Shown here in pieces: positions 4,977-22,404 of a DNA stretch of 33,212 bases. A program made the position numbers and the translations under genes. This stretch comes from Emcibacter sp. (GTDB lineage Bacteria > Pseudomonadota > Alphaproteobacteria > Sphingomonadales > Emcibacteraceae), in contig JALSHF010000014.1 in NCBI GenBank assembly GCA_026982375.1, positions 1 through 33,212 of the forward strand, read 5' to 3'. The notes beneath the pieces are model-generated. The model was not told the origin of the DNA and searched no databases. It worked only from the letters and a program-made list of their open reading frames with translations. The stretch's first letter is position 1. Each line of letters starts with the position of its first letter.

Positions 4977-5804
4977 TTAGCCAAAGATGCTCAAAATTGA
5001 TTGCGGGGCTTGATTGGCGATGGATAGCGCCTGTATGCCGAGCTGCTGTTTAACTTGCAGAGCCTGCAGGTTGGCGCTTTCCTTGGCCAGATTGGCATCC
5101 ACCAGATTGCCAATGCCGATTTCAATGGTGTCGGAGATTTTATCGGCAAATATCCGCTGGGTTTCCAGGGATTTTGATCCGGCGCCAAGTTTGGTCAAGG
5201 TCACGCTTACAGCGGCAAGAGAGGCTGATACCGCCGCAAGAGCGACAGAGGCGAGGGCGAGTGTTGAAATGCCCTGCGCTGCGGTAATGCTAATGTTGCC
5301 GCCGCCCAATGTCAGATTTTGATGCGCAATTGAGATGGTTTGGCTCGCGCTGGGATTGGTGATGGCGACTATGGCATCCGTCCCGGCGTCAAGTATATTC
5401 GTGCCATTGAATTCCGCGTTATTCACAATGATGGAGATTTGATCTCTTAAGGCCTCAAAATCTTCATTCAGGGCTGTCCGGCTTGTGGCATCAAGTCCGG
5501 CATCCGCCGCCGCAACCGTCTTTTCTTTCATCTCAATAAGCAGATCTGAAATAGCCCCGGCAGCGGCAAGGGCAATATCGGCAATACTGATGGAACGATC
5601 CAGACTTTGCTTGACCGCATTATACCCTTTCAGATCAGCGCGAAGCTTCTGGGCAATGGAAAATATGGCGGCATTATCCTTGGGCGATGAAACCTTAAGG
5701 CCGGTATTAATACGATTCTGTACTGTTTCCAATTGGGATGTCGTTTTATTGAGGTTGAAAAGTGCCGACAGGGCAATCGCATTGGTATTTACAGAAAAGG
5801 CCAT
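4977..5804 (-). CDS. Flagellin, downstream copy of a tandem pair
   Basis: This is a 275-residue flagellin. The start at 5804 (MAFSVNTNAIALSAL) is preferred to an upstream ATG at 5876 because it begins exactly at the conserved D0 helix and is preceded by AGGATC. Residues 1-135 form the N-terminal D0/D1 helices (GLKVSSPKDNAAIFSIAQ; SLDRSISIADIALAAAGAI); residues 200-275 form the C-terminal D1/D0 helices, ending in QLGIQALSIANQAPQSILSIFG. The middle is very short, so the surface D2/D3 domains are absent, as in many alphaproteobacterial flagellins. Relative to its neighbour, the section around residues 175-205 differs most and is Ala/Val/Leu rich. No separate -24/-12 promoter is visible in the 128-base gap, so it is probably read from the upstream copy. 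Confidence 0.94.
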   Translation of the reverse strand: MAFSVNTNAIALSALFNLNKTTSQLETVQNRINTGLKVSSPKDNAAIFSIAQKLRADLKGYNAVKQSLDRSISIADIALAAAGAISDLLIEMKEKTVAAADAGLDATSRTALNEDFEALRDQISIIVNNAEFNGTNILDAGTDAIVAITNPSASQTISIAHQNLTLGGGNISITAAQGISTLALASVALAAVSASLAAVSVTLTKLGAGSKSLETQRIFADKISDTIEIGIGNLVDANLAKESANLQALQVKQQLGIQALSIANQAPQSILSIFG

Positions 5805-5932
5805 ATTCTTGATCCTGTTAATCTTACATAAAGTATGTTTTTTATTATAGCTGTTGACCGGAAGGGTCATTTTCAATGAAGCAGACCACTTCCGATCAGA
5901 AGCTATTCAGAATGCGGGCGGTGGTATATCGC

Positions 5933-6763
5933 TTAACCGCCGAATAGACTTAAGATTGACTGCGGCGCCTGATTGGCAATGGATAGCGCCTGAATACCAA
6001 GCTGTTGCTTCACCTGCAGCGATTGCAAATTGGCGCTTTCCTTGGCCATATTGGCATCTACCAGATTACCGATCCCAACTTCAATGGTATCTGAAATCTT
6101 ATCCGCAAATGCCCGCTGAGATTCCAGGGCTTTCCCGCCAGCACCCAATTTGGTCAGAACCGCATTGACCAGCGCCAGCGAGTTGTCAATATCGGTCAGA
6201 GCACTTGCCGCGAGGGTCTGTGTCGTAATGGTTTGCGCCGCCGTGATCGTTACATTGCCGCCGCCCAATGTCAGATTTTGATGGGGAATGGTAATGGTCT
6301 GTGATGCGTTGGGGTTGGTGATGGCCACAATGGCATCTGTGCCCGCGTCAATCAAATTGGTGCCGTTAAATTCGGAATTGGCCACAATGATCGTGATTTG
6401 ATCCCGCAGCGCCTCAAAATCCTCATTCAGGGCTGTCCGGCTGGTGACATCAAGTCCGGCATCCGCCGCCGCAACAGCCTTTTCTTTCATTTCAATGAGT
6501 AGATCTGAAATGGCCCCGGCAGCGGCCAGCGCAATGTCAGTTGTACTGATGGAGCGATCCAGACTTTGCTTGACCGCATTATAGCCCCTTAAGTCCGCGC
6601 GCAGTTTCTGAGCGATTGAAAAAATCGCCGCATTATCCTTCGCAGAAGAAATTTTTAAACCGGTATTAATCCGGGTCTGGGTGGTTTCCAGATCCTTTGT
6701 TGTACTGTTCAAATTAAGCAGAGCCGACAGGGCACTGGCATTTGTATTTACTGAGAAAGACAT
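5933..6763 (-). CDS. Flagellin, upstream copy of a tandem pair
   Basis: This is a 276-residue flagellin beginning MSFSVNTNASALSALLNLN after an AAAGGAAAG ribosome site. D0/D1 helices lie at both ends and there is only a small linker in the middle (TNPNASQTITIPHQNLTLGGG). It closely matches the downstream copy over most of its length, so the pair arose by tandem duplication. Secreted through the flagellar export gate encoded elsewhere in this window, it polymerises into the filament. Ser/Thr-rich positions in the central region are the usual sites for pseudaminic acid, but no specific site can be assigned. A clear sigma-54 promoter lies about 70-90 bases upstream. Confidence 0.95.
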   Translation of the reverse strand: MSFSVNTNASALSALLNLNSTTKDLETTQTRINTGLKISSAKDNAAIFSIAQKLRADLRGYNAVKQSLDRSISTTDIALAAAGAISDLLIEMKEKAVAAADAGLDVTSRTALNEDFEALRDQITIIVANSEFNGTNLIDAGTDAIVAITNPNASQTITIPHQNLTLGGGNVTITAAQTITTQTLAASALTDIDNSLALVNAVLTKLGAGGKALESQRAFADKISDTIEVGIGNLVDANMAKESANLQSLQVKQQLGIQALSIANQAPQSILSLFGG

Positions 6764-14757: not shown

Positions 14758-15864
14758 ATGTCTGACGAAGAAGAAATTGATGATGATGCCGTTGCCGCCG
14801 AATGGGAAGCCATGGCGGCGGAAGGCGAAGCAGATCCTGAAGGTGATATAACCGAGGATGACGGCGAAGATGATATGGCCGCCGCCATGGGTGGGACGGA
14901 CCGGGTTCTGGACCAGACTGAAATTGACAGTCTTTTGGGTTTTGATGGTGAAGAAGAAGACTTTGGCTCAAAATCTGGTATTCAAGCCCTCATCAGTAGT
15001 GGTCTTGTGGCCTACGAACGTTTGCCGATGCTGGATATTATCTTTGATCGTTATGTGCGGATGATGTCAACGTCTCTGAGAAATTTCACGTCTGATAATT
15101 TTGAAGTCTCCATCGATAATATGACCTCAATCCGGTTTGGGGATTATTTGAATTCCATTCCTCTGCCGGCGATGCTCGCCGTTTTTCATGTTGAAGAATG
15201 GGACAATTATGGCTTGATCACTATTGACAGCAATCTCATCTATTCAATTGTGGACGCCCTTCTGGGCGGGCGGCGCGGGACGGCCCCGATGCGGATCGAA
15301 GGGCGGCCTTATACCACCATTGAACATACGCTTGTGGAAGAAATGCTGGCGGTCATGTTGAATGATTTATGTGATGCTTTTGAGCCGTTAAGCCCTGTGA
15401 AATTCAAATTGGATCGTTTGGAGACAAATCCAAGATTTGCGACCATTGCGCAACCGACAAATGCGGCGCTTTTGATCAGAATGCGCGCTGATATGGAAGA
15501 TCGGGGCGGGCGTATGGAGCTGGTATTGCCCTATGCCACTATTGAGCCGGTGCGGGAATTATTACTCCAACGTTTTATGGGAGAAAAATTTGGCCGCGAT
15601 TCCATATGGGAAACCCATTTGATGAAAGAGCTATTCAATACGGTGGTCCCTCTGGAAGTCATATTGGATGAGCATGTCATGACATTGGGAGAAGTGCTCG
15701 GTTTGGAAGTGGGGCAGACCATGATGCTCAATGTTCAATCAGATAGCGTCGTTGAAATGCGCAGCGGCGGCGTTCCCATGATGACCGGAAGAGTGGGCAA
15801 GCTTGGGCGTCATGTGGCGGTAAAAATAGAAAAAATTCTTGAACATAACAAGGCGGAAGCTTGA
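14758..15864 (+). CDS. fliM: FliM, flagellar switch protein with acidic N-terminal extension
   Basis: This 368-residue C-ring protein has the CheY-P-binding peptide LDQTEIDSLLGFD at residues 51-63 instead of at the extreme N-terminus. The 45-50 residues ahead of it are strongly acidic (EEEIDDDA, EDDGEDD). The middle domain follows, with LISSGLVAYERLPMLDIIFD and the GGRRG motif (ALLGGRRGTAPM), and the C-terminal SpoA domain that binds FliN (LEVGQTMMLNVQSDSVVEM ... GRVGKLGRHVAVKIEKIL). It links chemotaxis to rotation reversal; cheZ is encoded in the same run. Some relatives carry a similar acidic extension. Confidence 0.96.
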   Translation: MSDEEEIDDDAVAAEWEAMAAEGEADPEGDITEDDGEDDMAAAMGGTDRVLDQTEIDSLLGFDGEEEDFGSKSGIQALISSGLVAYERLPMLDIIFDRYVRMMSTSLRNFTSDNFEVSIDNMTSIRFGDYLNSIPLPAMLAVFHVEEWDNYGLITIDSNLIYSIVDALLGGRRGTAPMRIEGRPYTTIEHTLVEEMLAVMLNDLCDAFEPLSPVKFKLDRLETNPRFATIAQPTNAALLIRMRADMEDRGGRMELVLPYATIEPVRELLLQRFMGEKFGRDSIWETHLMKELFNTVVPLEVILDEHVMTLGEVLGLEVGQTMMLNVQSDSVVEMRSGGVPMMTGRVGKLGRHVAVKIEKILEHNKAEA

Positions 15865-15865
15865 T

Positions 15866-16297
15866 ATGGAGCTGGTTATTGACAGTGTCATCATTATCTT
15901 GATTATTGTCATGATATCTTATGCGGTTGTCCTGAATATCAAGCTGAAAGTCTTTCGTAATGCCCAGAATGAAATGGCGAATTTGGTCGGCAAGTTGAAT
16001 GAGGCGATTTCACAGGCGCAGAAGGGCGTTGACGCCTTGAAATCGGCCGCGCAAACAGAAGAAGTCCGTCTTGAAAATCTGGTGACCAAATCGCGGCTTC
16101 TGGCGGATGAACTGGAAATTATAATACAAAGTGGCTCAAGCCTGGCAGACCGGATTGAGCGTGGTCTGATACCAGCAGAAAATGTTGCGCTACAGAATTT
16201 TGATGCAGACGATCATTTTGATGAGGGCCGTTCTGATGAAAAAATGCATGATGAAGAAGATAATGAAATGTTGGAGACACTAAAAAAAGTCAGGTAG
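15866..16297 (+). CDS. DUF6468-type membrane-anchored coiled-coil protein
   Basis: This 143-residue protein of unknown function lies one base after the fliM stop. The ATG at 15866 is chosen over a frame-extended TTG start at 15839 inside fliM. One membrane segment (residues 6-24, SVIIILIIVMISYAVVL) is followed by a helical, probably coiled-coil cytoplasmic part (LVGKLNEAISQAQKGVDALK ... TKSRLLADELEIIIQSGSSLADRIE) and an acidic tail. The layout and position between fliM and motE match the DUF6468 family of alphaproteobacterial flagellar clusters. A link to motor or stator function is suggested only by context. Confidence 0.75.
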   Translation: MELVIDSVIIILIIVMISYAVVLNIKLKVFRNAQNEMANLVGKLNEAISQAQKGVDALKSAAQTEEVRLENLVTKSRLLADELEIIIQSGSSLADRIERGLIPAENVALQNFDADDHFDEGRSDEKMHDEEDNEMLETLKKVR

Positions 16298-16353
16298 CTG
16301 TGCTTTTTATCAAGGTTACCCAAAGTTATTTTAGAATACCCAAAGGAAAGAAT

Positions 16354-16989
16354 ATGTTGAAAAAATTCCGGTTGATACCGCTGGCTATCATTCTAATGTC
16401 GATGGTGCTTGGGATCAAAATAGTTGATTTTTCCTTTGGGGTGCAAAATGCCGTTGCGCAGGTCACTGAGCCTGAAATAGAAGATGCCCCGGTAGAGAAT
16501 AAAGAAAATACCAAGCAAGAAGAAAATGATCAACCCGCCGCTGAGGCCGCCCCCATGCAGATGAGCGGTATTCCCAGTCGAAAAGAAATAGAATATTTAC
16601 AAAAACTTTCCGAACGTCGCCGGGAACTGGATCGGCGCGCAAGGGAAATGGATGATCGGGAAAAATTGTTAGAGGCTGTTGAAAAGCGGATTGTTGAGCG
16701 GACAGCTTCCCTGAAGAAAATAAAAGAAACTATCGAAGCCTTGCTTGTCAAACATGATGAAATAGAAAAGGCGCAGCTTGTAAGTCTTGTTAAAATGTAT
16801 TCTGCAATGAAACCCAAAGAGGCCGCAGGCATATTCAACAGCCTTGATTCAGACGTCTTAATTTCAATCGTTGAAAATATGAAAGAGTCTAAAATGGGGG
16901 CTATTTTGGCTAAAATGAATATCAATAAGGCGAAAAAACTGACCACTGATCTTGCTGTCCGGAAACAATTGCCAAAAATTGACGGGTGA
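16354..16989 (+). CDS. MotE-like protein with MgtE-N-type C-terminal domain
   Basis: This 211-residue protein starts at ATG 16354, behind AAAGGAAAG; a GTG at 16300 is less likely. One N-terminal membrane or signal-anchor segment (residues 7-23) precedes a Pro/Glu-rich linker, a charged coiled coil (about 77-130, RRRELDRRAREMDDREKLLEA) and a FliG/MgtE-N-like helical domain (SLVKMYSAMKPKEAAGIFNSLDSDV). In Sinorhizobium MotE is a periplasmic chaperone of MotC. Here there is no MotC in view, and a structural role around FliM or the stator is equally possible. Confidence 0.78.
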   Translation: MLKKFRLIPLAIILMSMVLGIKIVDFSFGVQNAVAQVTEPEIEDAPVENKENTKQEENDQPAAEAAPMQMSGIPSRKEIEYLQKLSERRRELDRRAREMDDREKLLEAVEKRIVERTASLKKIKETIEALLVKHDEIEKAQLVSLVKMYSAMKPKEAAGIFNSLDSDVLISIVENMKESKMGAILAKMNINKAKKLTTDLAVRKQLPKIDG

Positions 16990-17101: not shown

Positions 17102-17746
17102 ATGCACTTAAATACAGTTTCACTGGAAGACAGGATCGAAAGTATTCGGGAAAAACTGGGTGATAAGGTTGATGTCAGTGATGTCACCTCTATTGTCGGT
17201 GAAGTGATGGGATCACTTGAGGGTGATTTTGATCTGAAAGAAGTCCATTTTCAGGACGAACTTCGCGAGTTACTGGGTTTCATTGAGAAAGCCAAGGCCG
17301 ACTTGTCAGATATCCAGCCAAAACATCTTAGTGAGAATGAAATTCCCGAGGCGAGCAATCAGCTGGGGCAGGTCGTTGATGCGACTGAAGAGGCCGCGAC
17401 AAAAATCATGGATTCCGCCGAAGAAATTTCCGAATTGGCCATGACCCTTGAAGGGGAAGTTGCGGATAAACTTATGACGATTTCCACTAATATCTTTGAG
17501 GCCTCCAGTTTTCAGGATATTACCGGTCAGCGTATGAGCAAGGTGGTAAAAACACTGAATTTCTTAGAAGAGAAGCTATCGCAGCTGGCCACTGCCATTG
17601 GGGATACCGATTCTCATCTTACCAATGACAAAAAGAATGATTCTGAGGATTTGGAAAGTGATAAGAATTTACTACAAGGCCCACAATGCAAGGTGACGGC
17701 TAATGATCAGGATTCTATTGATGCCTTATTCGATAGCTTTGATTGA
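17102..17746 (+). CDS. cheZ: CheZ, CheY-phosphate phosphatase
   Basis: This 214-residue all-helical protein has the CheZ catalytic motif SFQDITGQRMSKVV; D139 and Q143 correspond to E. coli D143 and Q147, which position the water for dephosphorylation of CheY-P. The C-terminal peptide DQDSIDALFDSFD resembles the CheY-tethering tail (VDDLLDSLGF) after a flexible linker (about 168-200). The amphipathic helices in between form the dimeric bundle. It resets the switch at FliM, encoded upstream. An AGAGGTG site precedes the ATG. Confidence 0.9.
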   Translation: MHLNTVSLEDRIESIREKLGDKVDVSDVTSIVGEVMGSLEGDFDLKEVHFQDELRELLGFIEKAKADLSDIQPKHLSENEIPEASNQLGQVVDATEEAATKIMDSAEEISELAMTLEGEVADKLMTISTNIFEASSFQDITGQRMSKVVKTLNFLEEKLSQLATAIGDTDSHLTNDKKNDSEDLESDKNLLQGPQCKVTANDQDSIDALFDSFD

Positions 17747-17781: not shown

Positions 17782-17901
17782 ATGGTTAATTTTAACGGCT
17801 TTCAGATATGCCTGAAAGATTATATGGCAGATTATCCGCCCAAATACGCAATAACAGAATACCCCGTAACAGACTATCTGGTAAGATACCCTAAAGAATG
17901 A
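17782..17901 (+). CDS. Possible small Tyr-rich ORF (39 codons) coupled to the MotB-like gene
   Basis: The frame starts MVNFNGFQICLK and stops at TGA 17899-17901, which overlaps the next ATG as ATGA. It has six tyrosines (residues 14, 18, 22, 27, 32, 36) at 4-5 residue steps, with DY/EY/RYP patterns; the DNA beneath shows imperfect 15-base repeats (AACAGAATACCCCGT, AACAGACTATCTGGT). A 7-pair hairpin (17799-17818, CTTTCAG/CTGAAAG) lies in it. The downstream gene has a poor ribosome site, which would make coupling useful. The ORF's own ribosome site is also weak, so it may be a leader peptide or chance. No family is recognised. Confidence 0.42.
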   Translation: MVNFNGFQICLKDYMADYPPKYAITEYPVTDYLVRYPKE

Positions 17902-18758
17902 GCGATATTATTGGCAATATAGGGGCGCCGAACCCCTTAGAAGCAAAAAAGAAAAAATCTGATGATACAACGGGACTTTTTGTTTCTTTATATTTGATTG
18001 TTTTGGCATTCTTTGTGGTCATGAATTCAATTTCAAATCAGGATCAGAATAAAGTTGACGCCGCAACAGAAAGTGTGACGCGGGCTTTTAAAAATCCTTT
18101 TGAACCCGAGGCTGATTTTGTTGATGTCGCGGCAAATGAAGACGCGGTGACGCCCAATGACGAATTTCATGACCAGATACTTGGCGTGTTTGCCTCGCTC
18201 GTCGGGTTTGACGGAAAATATGCGACGAAAGGCGGTGATATCGTCAGGGTGGAATTTAATCCAAATAATTTATTTATGGATGATTCTCATGAATTCAGGC
18301 CTGATCAACAGCCGTTTTTGAAACAATTATCCGTTTTTCTTGCCGGCGGACGCAGCAGTGAGAGACGGGAAATTAATTTCGTTATTTCTTCTGGCACAAG
18401 CTTGCCTCAAGGCCCAAGATATTGGCAGAATTTGACTATTCTTAGGGCCGGCGCTTTCGTCCATAAGTTAAGCGAAATGAATGTGGCAGAGAATCAAATG
18501 TCCATCGGGGTTGTGAAAGGCCCAAAAGAGCAAGTGACGTTAACCTTTCATAACAGGGACATAAAGACATCTGTTCAGGGCCTTGAAGGCCATGAAACAC
18601 AAAAACGGCCTAAAAATTCTTTAAATGAGCAATCCGGACAAGATCAATCCGGACAAGACCTGCCAATACGGAATGTGCCGGATCGCACGCCCCGTCAACC
18701 CATCACGGTTCAGCCCGTCAGCCGCGATAATGATCGGGGGGGCAATAATGAATTTTGA
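17898..18758 (+). CDS. MotB-like protein lacking the channel aspartate, degenerate OmpA-like domain
   Basis: This 286-residue protein has a short basic N-terminus (KKKKSDD), one membrane helix (residues 26-44, GLFVSLYLIVLAFFVVMNS) and a periplasmic domain. Aligned with the neighbouring MotB on the shared FFV motif, the proton-binding Asp becomes Ser30. Residues 110-220 look like an OmpA/MotB domain (VRVEFNPNNLFMDDSHEFRPDQ ... ILRAGAFVHKLSEM) without the GHTD peptidoglycan motif. The last 60 residues are a polar, Gln/Arg-rich tail. It probably pairs with a MotB-type stator or scaffold rather than conducting ions. The ribosome site is weak. Confidence 0.72.
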   Translation: MSDIIGNIGAPNPLEAKKKKSDDTTGLFVSLYLIVLAFFVVMNSISNQDQNKVDAATESVTRAFKNPFEPEADFVDVAANEDAVTPNDEFHDQILGVFASLVGFDGKYATKGGDIVRVEFNPNNLFMDDSHEFRPDQQPFLKQLSVFLAGGRSSERREINFVISSGTSLPQGPRYWQNLTILRAGAFVHKLSEMNVAENQMSIGVVKGPKEQVTLTFHNRDIKTSVQGLEGHETQKRPKNSLNEQSGQDQSGQDLPIRNVPDRTPRQPITVQPVSRDNDRGGNNEF

Positions 18759-19494
18759 TTCTGACAATGCGAAACCCGAAGGCCCATCAGAAAGCTGGTT
18801 GATCATTTTTTCAGATCTTCTGGCACTTTTGCTGACTTTTTTTGTTTTATTATTTTCAATGAGTTCCGTACAAATTTCCAAATGGGAAGCCATTGTTGAA
18901 TCATTGAGCGAGAATCTTAATCCAAGCAGGGCCCAGATACAGGAAGTCGACTGGCAGAATATCGAGGCGGCCATGGTGCCGCAAAAAGAAGCCCTTAGTC
19001 TGGAATATTTGAAAAAGATCTTTGTTGATAAGCTGCAATATGATCTTATTTTGAGGCGCAGCAGCGTATCTGTTCTGGATGATCGCCTTGTGATCACTTT
19101 GCCGGCTGATTTGATATTTGAGTCTGGTCAGTCCAGATTTTCCGGAGATGCCTATAAATCAATGCAGGAGCTGGGGGCGGCACTTCAATCTATTCAGAAT
19201 AAAATTACCGTCGTGGGGCATACGGACCCGGAACCGACAAGTGGACGACTTTATCCAACCAATTGGGAATTGTCTTTGGTGCGGGCCATATCTGTCGCGC
19301 AACTGATTGAGCAGGCAGGCTATACGCAAAATATTGAGATTTTTGGCAACGGGGCATCGCGTTTTGATGATCTGGATGAGAATATTCCGCTTAATGAAAG
19401 ATATTTACTGGCCCGCCGCGTGGATATAATTATTCACCGGGAGGACAGGGATCAGCCAGAGGATATTTATGAGAAAAAAACGACCCAATATTAA
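18748..19494 (+). CDS. motB: MotB-family stator protein with OmpA-like domain
   Basis: This 248-residue protein starts at ATG 18748, behind a G-rich site, overlapping the previous gene by 11 bases; longer frame extensions lie inside that gene. The membrane helix is ESWLIIFSDLLALLLTFFVL with D23, the ion-carrying aspartate. The periplasmic domain has FESGQSRFSGDAYKSM, VVGHTD (the peptidoglycan-binding motif) and NERYLLARRVDIII, all expected of MotB. Length is normal to short. No motA is present in the window, so the partner must lie elsewhere. Which ion is used cannot be told. Confidence 0.88.
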   Translation: MNFDSDNAKPEGPSESWLIIFSDLLALLLTFFVLLFSMSSVQISKWEAIVESLSENLNPSRAQIQEVDWQNIEAAMVPQKEALSLEYLKKIFVDKLQYDLILRRSSVSVLDDRLVITLPADLIFESGQSRFSGDAYKSMQELGAALQSIQNKITVVGHTDPEPTSGRLYPTNWELSLVRAISVAQLIEQAGYTQNIEIFGNGASRFDDLDENIPLNERYLLARRVDIIIHREDRDQPEDIYEKKTTQY

Positions 19495-19509: not shown

Positions 19510-22404
19510 ATGAGTAATCGCATGAGTTTATCAAGGTTGATCATTGTTGTCATTGCGGCTTTTGGCAGCATTATACCGGCCTTGGCCCAAGAGTCTGTAC
19601 CGGAGTCTGTAAATGTACGTTTCGCTGATCACCCAAGCTTTAGCCGTATGGTTTTTGATTGGCAGGAAAATGTGGATTATCGGCCGCATCTGGCACAGGG
19701 CAAGCTCGAAATAACTTTTGAGAAAGCCTCAACGCCGAACCTGAGCCGCCTGTTGAACGATCCGCTTAATTTTCTGACTGATCCGGAATACCGGATTTCT
19801 GACGGAAATTTAATTGTCAGCTTTAGGTTGCCCCGGCCCGGAAAACTCAAGCATTTCAGGCTTGGTACCAAAATAGTTTTTGACATTTCTGGTGATAATT
19901 CAGATTTAATATCCCCCCGGCAACAGGCAGCACAGAATAGGGCGTTGCCCTCACCTATTGTGAATGGTGAAAATAATACCCGGATCAGCACATCCATAGC
20001 GCAACCTGACAATGGCCATTTGATATTGGGCGTTAATAACATATGGGATAATCTCAGATTAAGTTATCCGTGGAATGAAGATGTTCGGGCCGCAGCCTTC
20101 ATTCGTCATAACCTTCTCTGGGTTGTCTTTGAGGGCAAGAAACGGGTGGATCAGGAAAATCTGAACCGGTTTCTTGGGCTACGGATAATATCCGCCCGGC
20201 AGATTGATCACCCGACAATGACCGTTTTATTATATGAAGTGACCCCGGGGCAGAATATCAAAGTTCAGAAAATAGGTCGGGCATGGCATATTGATCTGAA
20301 GAATGCTCCAACCCAACCGGCGCATTTGATCGCCGGCAGCAATCAACGGGCCAGCGGTAACAGGGGGGAAAATTTTTTCTATTCTGTGGAGAATGCGGGG
20401 GAGGCTATAGTCATTGAAGACCCGGTTATCGGGGATGAGTTGGCCATTGTGCCGGTCATGCTTTCATCGCAAGGGGTATTAGAGGGACAAAAATTTGCAG
20501 AGTTCCAGTCATTGGCAACGGCGCAAGGGATAGCGGTTCAATTGATCGCGGATAATTTGAGCATCAAGAGCTATCGAACCGGCGTTAGTGTTGCTGCTAA
20601 AGAAGGGGCCAAACAGGGATTAGCCCTTTCGCCTAGCCTGCTTTCCGGAAAACTCGGGGTGATAACAGAGGCAGAAGGCGACGCCGCAGGGACAAGGCTC
20701 GTTGATTTTCTGGAATGGAAAAAAGGCCCGTTAGAGGGGGAAGATTATCATGTTAACAAACATGAGTTTCTTTATATGCTGGCCAACTCAACAGATACCA
20801 ACCGAAATGAAATCCGGTGGAGATTGGCCAGATTTTACCTCGCCAATGGCCGCAGCAGAGAAGCTTTCGGTGTGTTGAATGTGATGTTGGATGAAGACTC
20901 CAGACTTATTGAAAATCCTGATTTCAGGACAGTTCTTGCCGTGACCAATATAAAAATGCGCCGTTACAAAGAGGGCGCAAAGCTGTTGCATCACAAGGCA
21001 CTCATGGCTGAGGAGGATGCTTTCTTATGGAGCGCTGTGGCAAATAGTGCTTTGGGTCATCATGAACGGGCGTTTAAAAATTATAAAAAAGGCGCAGACA
21101 GCCTTGCGCGGCAGGACCCGCAAAGCCAAATTATATTCTTGCTCGCGGCAATTCGTTCGGCCTATGTTGTTGGTGACAAGAGTTTCATAGATTTTGGTTT
21201 GTCATTCTTGAGAGGCCTGCCCCTTACGGCGGCGCAATATACGCAAGTGGATTATTGGCAAGCGCTTCTGGCGCGGGATAACGGCGACATTCTGCAAGCC
21301 GAAGAGATGCTGAGGGGCCTTGTTAAGGCCGGCGTCAGGGAAACGGCATCATGGGCAACGCTGGATCTGATCAATATGGATTTAGAAGCTAAGAAAATTG
21401 ATAGTATCGAGGCGATTGATCAATTGGAGAAGCTGCGTTTTTCCTGGCGGGGGGATGATTTTGAACTGGGGTTGCTGTCCCGGCTTGGTGATCTTTATGT
21501 TGAACAGAATGATTTTAATACCGGCCTTCAAACCCTAAGGCTCGCCGTTACTTTTTTTGAGGGATCACCCAAAACAGCGGCATTAACCCATCAAATGAAC
21601 CGCATCTATAGTGATTTATTCCTAAAGGGCGGCGCGGCGGTCATGAATCCGATAAAGGCCGTGGCGCTTTACTCTGAGTTTCGGGAGCTTATTCCGCTGG
21701 GCAATGACGGGGACAATATGACCAGAAGGCTGGCCGACAGGCTCGTGTCACTGGACTTGCTTGAGGAGGCGGCGGCATTATTGAACCATCAGGTAAAATT
21801 TCGCCTGAAAGGGGGGGCGCAATCGGTTGTTGCGGAACGTTTGGCCATGATTTACATGCTGGATTCAAAACCTGATATGGCCATGGGGATTCTAAGGGCC
21901 ACCCGGGATTCGCAAATTCCGGATGATATTATACTGCGCCGGAATATGATCGAAGCCCGCGCTTTGATAGAGCTGGGCCGGTATGAAGAAGCCGAAGTCA
22001 TGCTCGAAGAATATAAAACCGAAGAAGCCGATAGCTTACGCGCCGATATATATTGGAAATCTGAAGATTGGGACAGATATATCAGCCACGGCAATCGAAT
22101 GTTGGGCAACCGTTATCAGGATGATACGCTTCTTAGCCCGCAGGAAAGGCTTGCTGTTCTGCGCTTGTCGGTAGCCTATGTCATAAATAACGATAAAGAG
22201 GGGGTGAAAGCGCTCCGTAATAAATATAAAACTCATATGGATAACGGTCTTTACGGCGATACTTTTGAAGTGATCACGGCGGAAAAACAACTGGCGGATA
22301 TTGATGTGCGCCGCCTGACAAAATCCATTGCAAGTGTCGCAAAACTGGAAAGTTTCATGGAATCCTACAGGGCTGAATTCACAAAAGACATTGCCCGGAA
22401 TTAA
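19510..22404 (+). CDS. Large exported TPR protein of the flagellar cluster
   Basis: This 964-residue protein starts 15 bases after motB. A signal peptide (residues 1-26, cleavage after ALA-QE) sends it to the periplasm. Residues 32-130 are beta-rich and AMIN-like (VRFADHPSFSRMVFDW; LGTKIVFDISG), and a second beta region is near 175-275. From about residue 415 to 950, helical pairs with the TPR pattern fill the rest (RWRLARFYLANGRSREAFGVL, LYVEQNDFNTGLQTLRLAV, EARALIELGRYEEAEVMLEEY). Function is unknown. The layout recalls Campylobacter PflA, a beta plus TPR periplasmic motor scaffold, but homology is not claimed. Co-location with motB suggests stator or disk assembly. Confidence 0.78.
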   Translation: MSNRMSLSRLIIVVIAAFGSIIPALAQESVPESVNVRFADHPSFSRMVFDWQENVDYRPHLAQGKLEITFEKASTPNLSRLLNDPLNFLTDPEYRISDGNLIVSFRLPRPGKLKHFRLGTKIVFDISGDNSDLISPRQQAAQNRALPSPIVNGENNTRISTSIAQPDNGHLILGVNNIWDNLRLSYPWNEDVRAAAFIRHNLLWVVFEGKKRVDQENLNRFLGLRIISARQIDHPTMTVLLYEVTPGQNIKVQKIGRAWHIDLKNAPTQPAHLIAGSNQRASGNRGENFFYSVENAGEAIVIEDPVIGDELAIVPVMLSSQGVLEGQKFAEFQSLATAQGIAVQLIADNLSIKSYRTGVSVAAKEGAKQGLALSPSLLSGKLGVITEAEGDAAGTRLVDFLEWKKGPLEGEDYHVNKHEFLYMLANSTDTNRNEIRWRLARFYLANGRSREAFGVLNVMLDEDSRLIENPDFRTVLAVTNIKMRRYKEGAKLLHHKALMAEEDAFLWSAVANSALGHHERAFKNYKKGADSLARQDPQSQIIFLLAAIRSAYVVGDKSFIDFGLSFLRGLPLTAAQYTQVDYWQALLARDNGDILQAEEMLRGLVKAGVRETASWATLDLINMDLEAKKIDSIEAIDQLEKLRFSWRGDDFELGLLSRLGDLYVEQNDFNTGLQTLRLAVTFFEGSPKTAALTHQMNRIYSDLFLKGGAAVMNPIKAVALYSEFRELIPLGNDGDNMTRRLADRLVSLDLLEEAAALLNHQVKFRLKGGAQSVVAERLAMIYMLDSKPDMAMGILRATRDSQIPDDIILRRNMIEARALIELGRYEEAEVMLEEYKTEEADSLRADIYWKSEDWDRYISHGNRMLGNRYQDDTLLSPQERLAVLRLSVAYVINNDKEGVKALRNKYKTHMDNGLYGDTFEVITAEKQLADIDVRRLTKSIASVAKLESFMESYRAEFTKDIARN

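Follow-up and report, generated by a model that had tools for sequence, protein, structure and literature searches.

Why a bacterium should carry, side by side, two genes for MotB-type stator subunits, one of which lacks the aspartate that binds the ion, is the question raised by a flagellar gene cluster of Emcibacter sp. (Alphaproteobacteria). The window considered here is a whole stretch of 33,212 nucleotides (GenBank assembly GCA_026982375.1, contig JALSHF010000014.1, contig 14 of the genome), and the two genes are called X (MotBx) and Y (MotBy) below. X is a genuine MotB relative by homology, and both its Asp-less state and its pairing with Y are class-wide and well beyond chance. This suggests that in many Alphaproteobacteria a flagellar stator is built with a pair of unlike B subunits, encoded next to each other, of which one is without the ion-binding Asp. 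The explanation that we favour, at a probability of about 55%, is that the products of three genes, A, X and Y, would make up a dedicated stator, most likely A5:X1:Y1, with X as its obligate second B subunit.

Once the FFV motifs of the two proteins are aligned, Ser30 of X stands opposite Asp23 of Y, and the stretch of X corresponding to the GHTD motif of Y reads SGTS. The start of Y is the ATG at 18748, which is backed by the alignment to relatives and places the Asp at residue 23 (the list of open reading frames had 18625); the two genes share 11 bases, 18748-18758, as read from the sequence. Y has all the marks of a B subunit, namely the transmembrane Asp, an OmpA domain and GHTD, and scores above the Pfam cut-offs for both MotB_plug and OmpA. 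Two of the marks, the Asp for the ion and the motif for peptidoglycan, are missing from X, which keeps the fold and the ligand-site Arg; it reaches 24.8 bits with Pfam MotB_plug (cut-off 24) and stays below the cut-off of Pfam OmpA. In the PDB, a profile of the X family matches PomB/MotB with E 7e-10, spanning the transmembrane and the periplasmic parts, and profile-profile alignment of X with Y (hhalign) yields a probability of 98% and E 9e-14 at 15% identity. The AlphaFold2 (AF2) model of X, folded as a monomer, has a mean predicted local distance difference test score (pLDDT) of 75.6, mostly above 90 in the periplasmic domain, and its residues 81-230 match the periplasmic domains of MotB-like DVU_2228, MotS and PomB with Z of 11-12. 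The nearest named organisms that gave a match are Emcibacter metagenome-assembled genomes.

The original prediction, which was made from the letters of this DNA, had reported Ser30 in X, Asp23 and GHTD in Y and the 11-base overlap, and each of these is confirmed in the sequence. Its proposal that X is kin to MotB is borne out by MotB_plug, the PDB profile, the alignment to Y and the fold match of the AF2 model; the outcome that it had named as refuting, a profile search placing X in another family without any tie to MotB, did not occur. X as a separate family unrelated to MotB is ruled out by the first three of these results, and a sequencing or assembly accident is ruled out by the occurrence of X in independent genomes.

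Homologs of X are present in 40 of 60 relatives, nearly always in single copy, and a usable match was found in 76 of 289 genomes sampled across the class; a query of plasmids with the X of a large-genome class member (L124) gave no match. In the class sample and the close relatives taken together, the Asp site of X is occupied by Ser in 60 cases, Gly in 14, Ala in 10, Asp in three, Pro in one and Asn in one (n = 89), and the Asp site of Y by Asp in 86 of 86 readable cases. These samples were used for the counts, the invariance of S30 and Y32 in alignment A3 being biased by the retrieval of its loci with a pattern containing those letters. Retention of the Asp by relatives, which the original prediction had named as an observation that would speak against it, is thus confined to 3 of 89. 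The Asp-bearing peptidoglycan motif is lost throughout X, and the ligand-site Arg is retained in 76 of 89. The transmembrane helix is the best-conserved region of X, with the FF motif retained: it carries 2.82 bits per site versus 3.13 in Y, the values for the OmpA part being 1.43 versus 1.87. Throughout the class X and Y nearly always neighbour each other in a fixed order; in one genome (L156) they lie on opposite strands a few kilobases apart. Since the profiles that supplied the X and Y labels in the neighbourhood scan cross-match, it is the gene order, not the label, that counts as evidence.

An A partner has to be sought elsewhere in the genome, which encodes a classical MotA (C137, TIGR03818 above cut-off) and MotB (C45). 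A second A gene, of the PomA type, is located at C11:3330-4088 (L043) within a fliG/fliH ... flbD-flhA cluster and has no adjoining B gene. Its product contains a MotA_ExbB domain and scores best in NCBIfam with PomA, at 220.5 bits, below the cut-off of 341. The Thr triad (equivalents of T158/T185/T186), reported to be conserved in all Na+ stators (PMC10374538), is present in the PomA-type A subunits that were read and missing from the classical MotA of this genome; an A5-type motor with the C11 A is predicted to be probably Na+-driven. X and a PomA-type A occur together in 73 of the 289 genomes, X only in three, A only in six and neither in 207, counts that are phylogenetically non-independent, so that the Fisher value computed from them does not give a fair probability. 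Four of the six A-only genomes (G130, G148, G163 and G303; L112-L115) hold a diverged Asp-less X on direct reading. In several families the members without A are also without X, yet a weak match of the classical MotA type stays (for example, in G107, G154, G228, G305 and G330).

Two other observations were made on stator-like genes of the Emcibacter genome (G000). The start of the classical motB is found on two contig ends (the end of C137 and the start of C45; L045, L047) with small differences, which is probably an assembly overlap or strain variation. Contig C24 (L044:2755-8065) encodes a TonB-type energizer that comprises two ExbB proteins, one long and one short, together with an ExbD-like and a TonB-like protein, and that has coiled-coil and TPR proteins on its flanks.

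A phylum-wide search for loci outside the class identified six (L249, L250, L251, L253, L254 and L255) in which A is followed directly by an X that has Glu or Gln at the site and then by an Asp-bearing Y, the three genes lying beside fliM and fliP, and two operons (L248 and L252) with one A and two MotB genes, both with Asp. In a tree of 85 rows, which has many long branches and in which the bootstrap had not settled, one group (95/80) unites the X of the class with the Glu/Gln X and the three Asp-bearing X, and the other consists of Y and the remaining B subunits. X and Y are, judging by this tree, separate ancient clades. The Asp-bearing X of L127 nests among Asp-less X, which suggests that its Asp was regained; the other two (L131 and L133) diverge low in the tree and may be either ancestral or misplaced.

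From the homology, the loss of the Asp, the adjacency, the co-occurrence and the operons, all of them observed, we infer a physical complex with X and Y as a 1:1 heterodimer. A single X helix and a single Y helix would together fill the A5 ring; Y alone would supply the ion-binding Asp and the peptidoglycan-binding motif, and X would serve as the second axle helix, its Asp position taken by a small neutral residue. The constrained transmembrane helix of X and the small residue at its Asp site are to be expected of a helix that lies against the A ring. At the dimer-interface offsets defined for MotB (PMC10659934), X has L/V and Y has A/T at -1, and X has N/T and Y has F/Y at +13; these complementary sizes would suit an X-Y heterodimer. 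The three-part Na+-type stator would work next to the separate classical MotA/MotB stator of the genome, and the simplest prediction from one ion-binding acid would be five ion steps per turn. The full version of this proposal, an A5:X1:Y1 axle with one Asp that moves in steps of about 72 degrees, consumes half the ions per turn of A5B2 and is the standard second stator in much of Alphaproteobacteria, is more tentative and we consider it somewhat doubtful.

Several points weigh against an A-X-Y stator. The loss of the Asp is not absolute, as seen from the three class members L127, L131 and L133. The covariation between the transmembrane helices of X and Y ranked 8 of 64 register shifts and did not confirm the heterodimer. 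In this genome A is on a different contig from X and Y; two genomes (G094 and G292) have A and no X found even by a wider profile; and the co-occurrence counts come, as said, from related genomes. In known stators the two B chains are identical, with the two Asp24 of PomB in different states, engaged and disengaged, and the transmembrane Asp has been called universally conserved among stator families (PMC10374538); since two Asp are used there in alternating states, a stator with one Asp needs a different cycle.

Among the three roles that had been offered for X, that of a heteromeric B subunit is the best supported, by the strict X-Y pairing, the co-occurrence with one A gene, the A-X-Y operons elsewhere and a transmembrane helix conserved nearly as strongly as that of Y. 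A regulator is a weaker candidate, on which the gene neighbourhood (Table 1) bears. The gene order fliM-DUF6468-MotE-(CheZ)-X-Y-TPR recurs in Emcibacter, Kordiimonas, Terasakiella, Thalassospira, Sneathiella and many other families. We take the first gene of the block to be fliM from its sequence and its place. Elsewhere in the window, two tandem and very similar flagellin genes lie on the minus strand (4977-5876 and 5933-6763).

Table 1. Genes of the block around X and Y, with positions in the window.
Feature	Position	Strand	Remarks
FliM (presumed)	14758..15864	+	upstream edge of the block
DUF6468 membrane protein	15839..16297	+	lies between fliM and motE in most of the class
MotE / E-ring-type periplasmic protein	16300..16989	+	MgtE_N; weak match to FlbB collar; start codon unsure
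CheZ	17102..17746	+	precedes X in many, not all, relatives
X (MotBx), MotB-family paralogue without channel Asp	17898..18758	+	286 aa; transmembrane helix 24-46 (Ser30 at the Asp site), plug/linker, OmpA-like domain ~86-222 without GHTD
Y (MotBy), MotB with Asp23 and GHTD	18748..19494	+	248 aa from start 18748
Large TPR protein in the place of MotK	19510..22404	+	AMIN-like match below threshold

The large TPR protein that follows Y has the TPR and the position of MotK, and its AMIN-like match is weak (E 0.23); the label MotK-like, based on position and architecture only, follows PMC10954123. X itself as the published MotK is ruled out, MotK being a large AMIN/TPR protein placed like the product of 19510-22404. 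According to the same paper, rotation in Cereibacter Fla2 requires MotE and MotK, which bind MotB2, and the E-ring is held to consist of MotE-type proteins (PMC13023049). Because X and Y sit between the MotE-type and the MotK-like TPR genes, an X-Y stator would probably dock on a MotE/MotK-like scaffold, perhaps with the altered periplasmic domain of X as the contact.

The same location, together with the binding of MotB2 by MotE and MotK described in Cereibacter (PMC10954123), could be explained if X acted next to the pore, as a regulator or assembly factor in the membrane that stays outside the A ring and recruits or activates A5Y2 via the scaffold. A periplasmic domain with an OmpA-like fold and no peptidoglycan motif is what a protein-binding domain would look like. 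However, the transmembrane helix is the best-conserved part of X, and its FF motif and small residue at the Asp site would be needless for a lipid-facing anchor; moreover, the A-X-Y operons of other lineages, where MotE and TPR neighbours were not detected, point to the stator proper. We consider this explanation unlikely, although it is the strongest of the alternatives.

Less probable still are exchangeable homodimers, in which A5Y2 would conduct and a silent A5X2 would occupy sites or act as a brake, tuning the torque. Apart from the missing Asp and peptidoglycan motif, X has the features of a B subunit, and Asn43, at one of the interface positions, could promote an X-X contact, but X and Y are retained in equal number, with genes that overlap or almost abut, which fits a fixed ratio better than regulated exchange. 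The role of a peptidoglycan anchor reinforcing the attachment of the stator, also among those offered originally, draws on the OmpA-like fold of the AF2 model and on the Arg kept at the ligand site; it is disfavoured and very improbable, because X is without the Asp-bearing peptidoglycan motif and is least conserved in its periplasmic domain. A functionless decaying duplicate, to which the loss of both motifs might point, can be dismissed almost entirely given an X that is intact in dozens of families and strongly constrained in its transmembrane helix.

Returning to the A-X-Y stator, no description of an Asp-less paired MotB was found in the open-licence papers searched, and a search of such papers for dominance of the MotB D32N substitution was equally without result. 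In a 2025 survey of how MotAB evolved (PMC12505986), B subunits were assigned by their proximity to A, so that an X-Y system would be missed where A is unlinked; the separation of the orphan A at C11 from the B genes may be why surveys missed the pair. Current 5:2 models of the rotary motor assume two identical B chains with two alternating Asp. The X-Y stator would be a natural, ancient and widespread case in which one B has Ser, Gly or Ala, and the Asp-less X suggests a lopsided, one-acid version of the motor. The series Asp/Asp, Glu or Gln/Asp and Ser/Asp would allow testing whether both acids are needed, how the ion count per turn is determined, and whether conduction, anchoring and scaffold binding can be divided between B subunits.

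Compared with known systems, X resembles MotY and OmpA-like motor accessories in having an OmpA-like periplasmic domain near the stator, but it has the transmembrane helix of MotB, and its profile matches MotY more weakly than PomB/MotB. The MotE-MotK-MotB2 system of Cereibacter sphaeroides Fla2 shares the MotE-type and large TPR neighbours and has MotB2 as the stator partner, whereas an Asp-less MotB partner goes unmentioned in the passages of PMC10954123 that were consulted, and MotK is a periplasmic AMIN/TPR protein distinct from X. With PomAB, MotCD and MotPS (A5B2) the present system has in common the best scores of Y and the C11 A (below equivalog cut-offs), the Na+-stator Thr triad of A and the MotB fold of X and Y; it differs in having two B paralogues, one of them Asp-less, and an A that is unlinked in this genome. 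AglR-AglQ-AglS of Myxococcus gliding differs in its non-flagellar function, its TolR-like periplasmic domains and the Asp described in both AglQ and AglS, and PMC9389320 leaves undecided whether these two pair as hetero- or homodimers; with one MotA-like and two MotB-like proteins (PMC9389320), it comes closest as a precedent for an A that is combined with two B.
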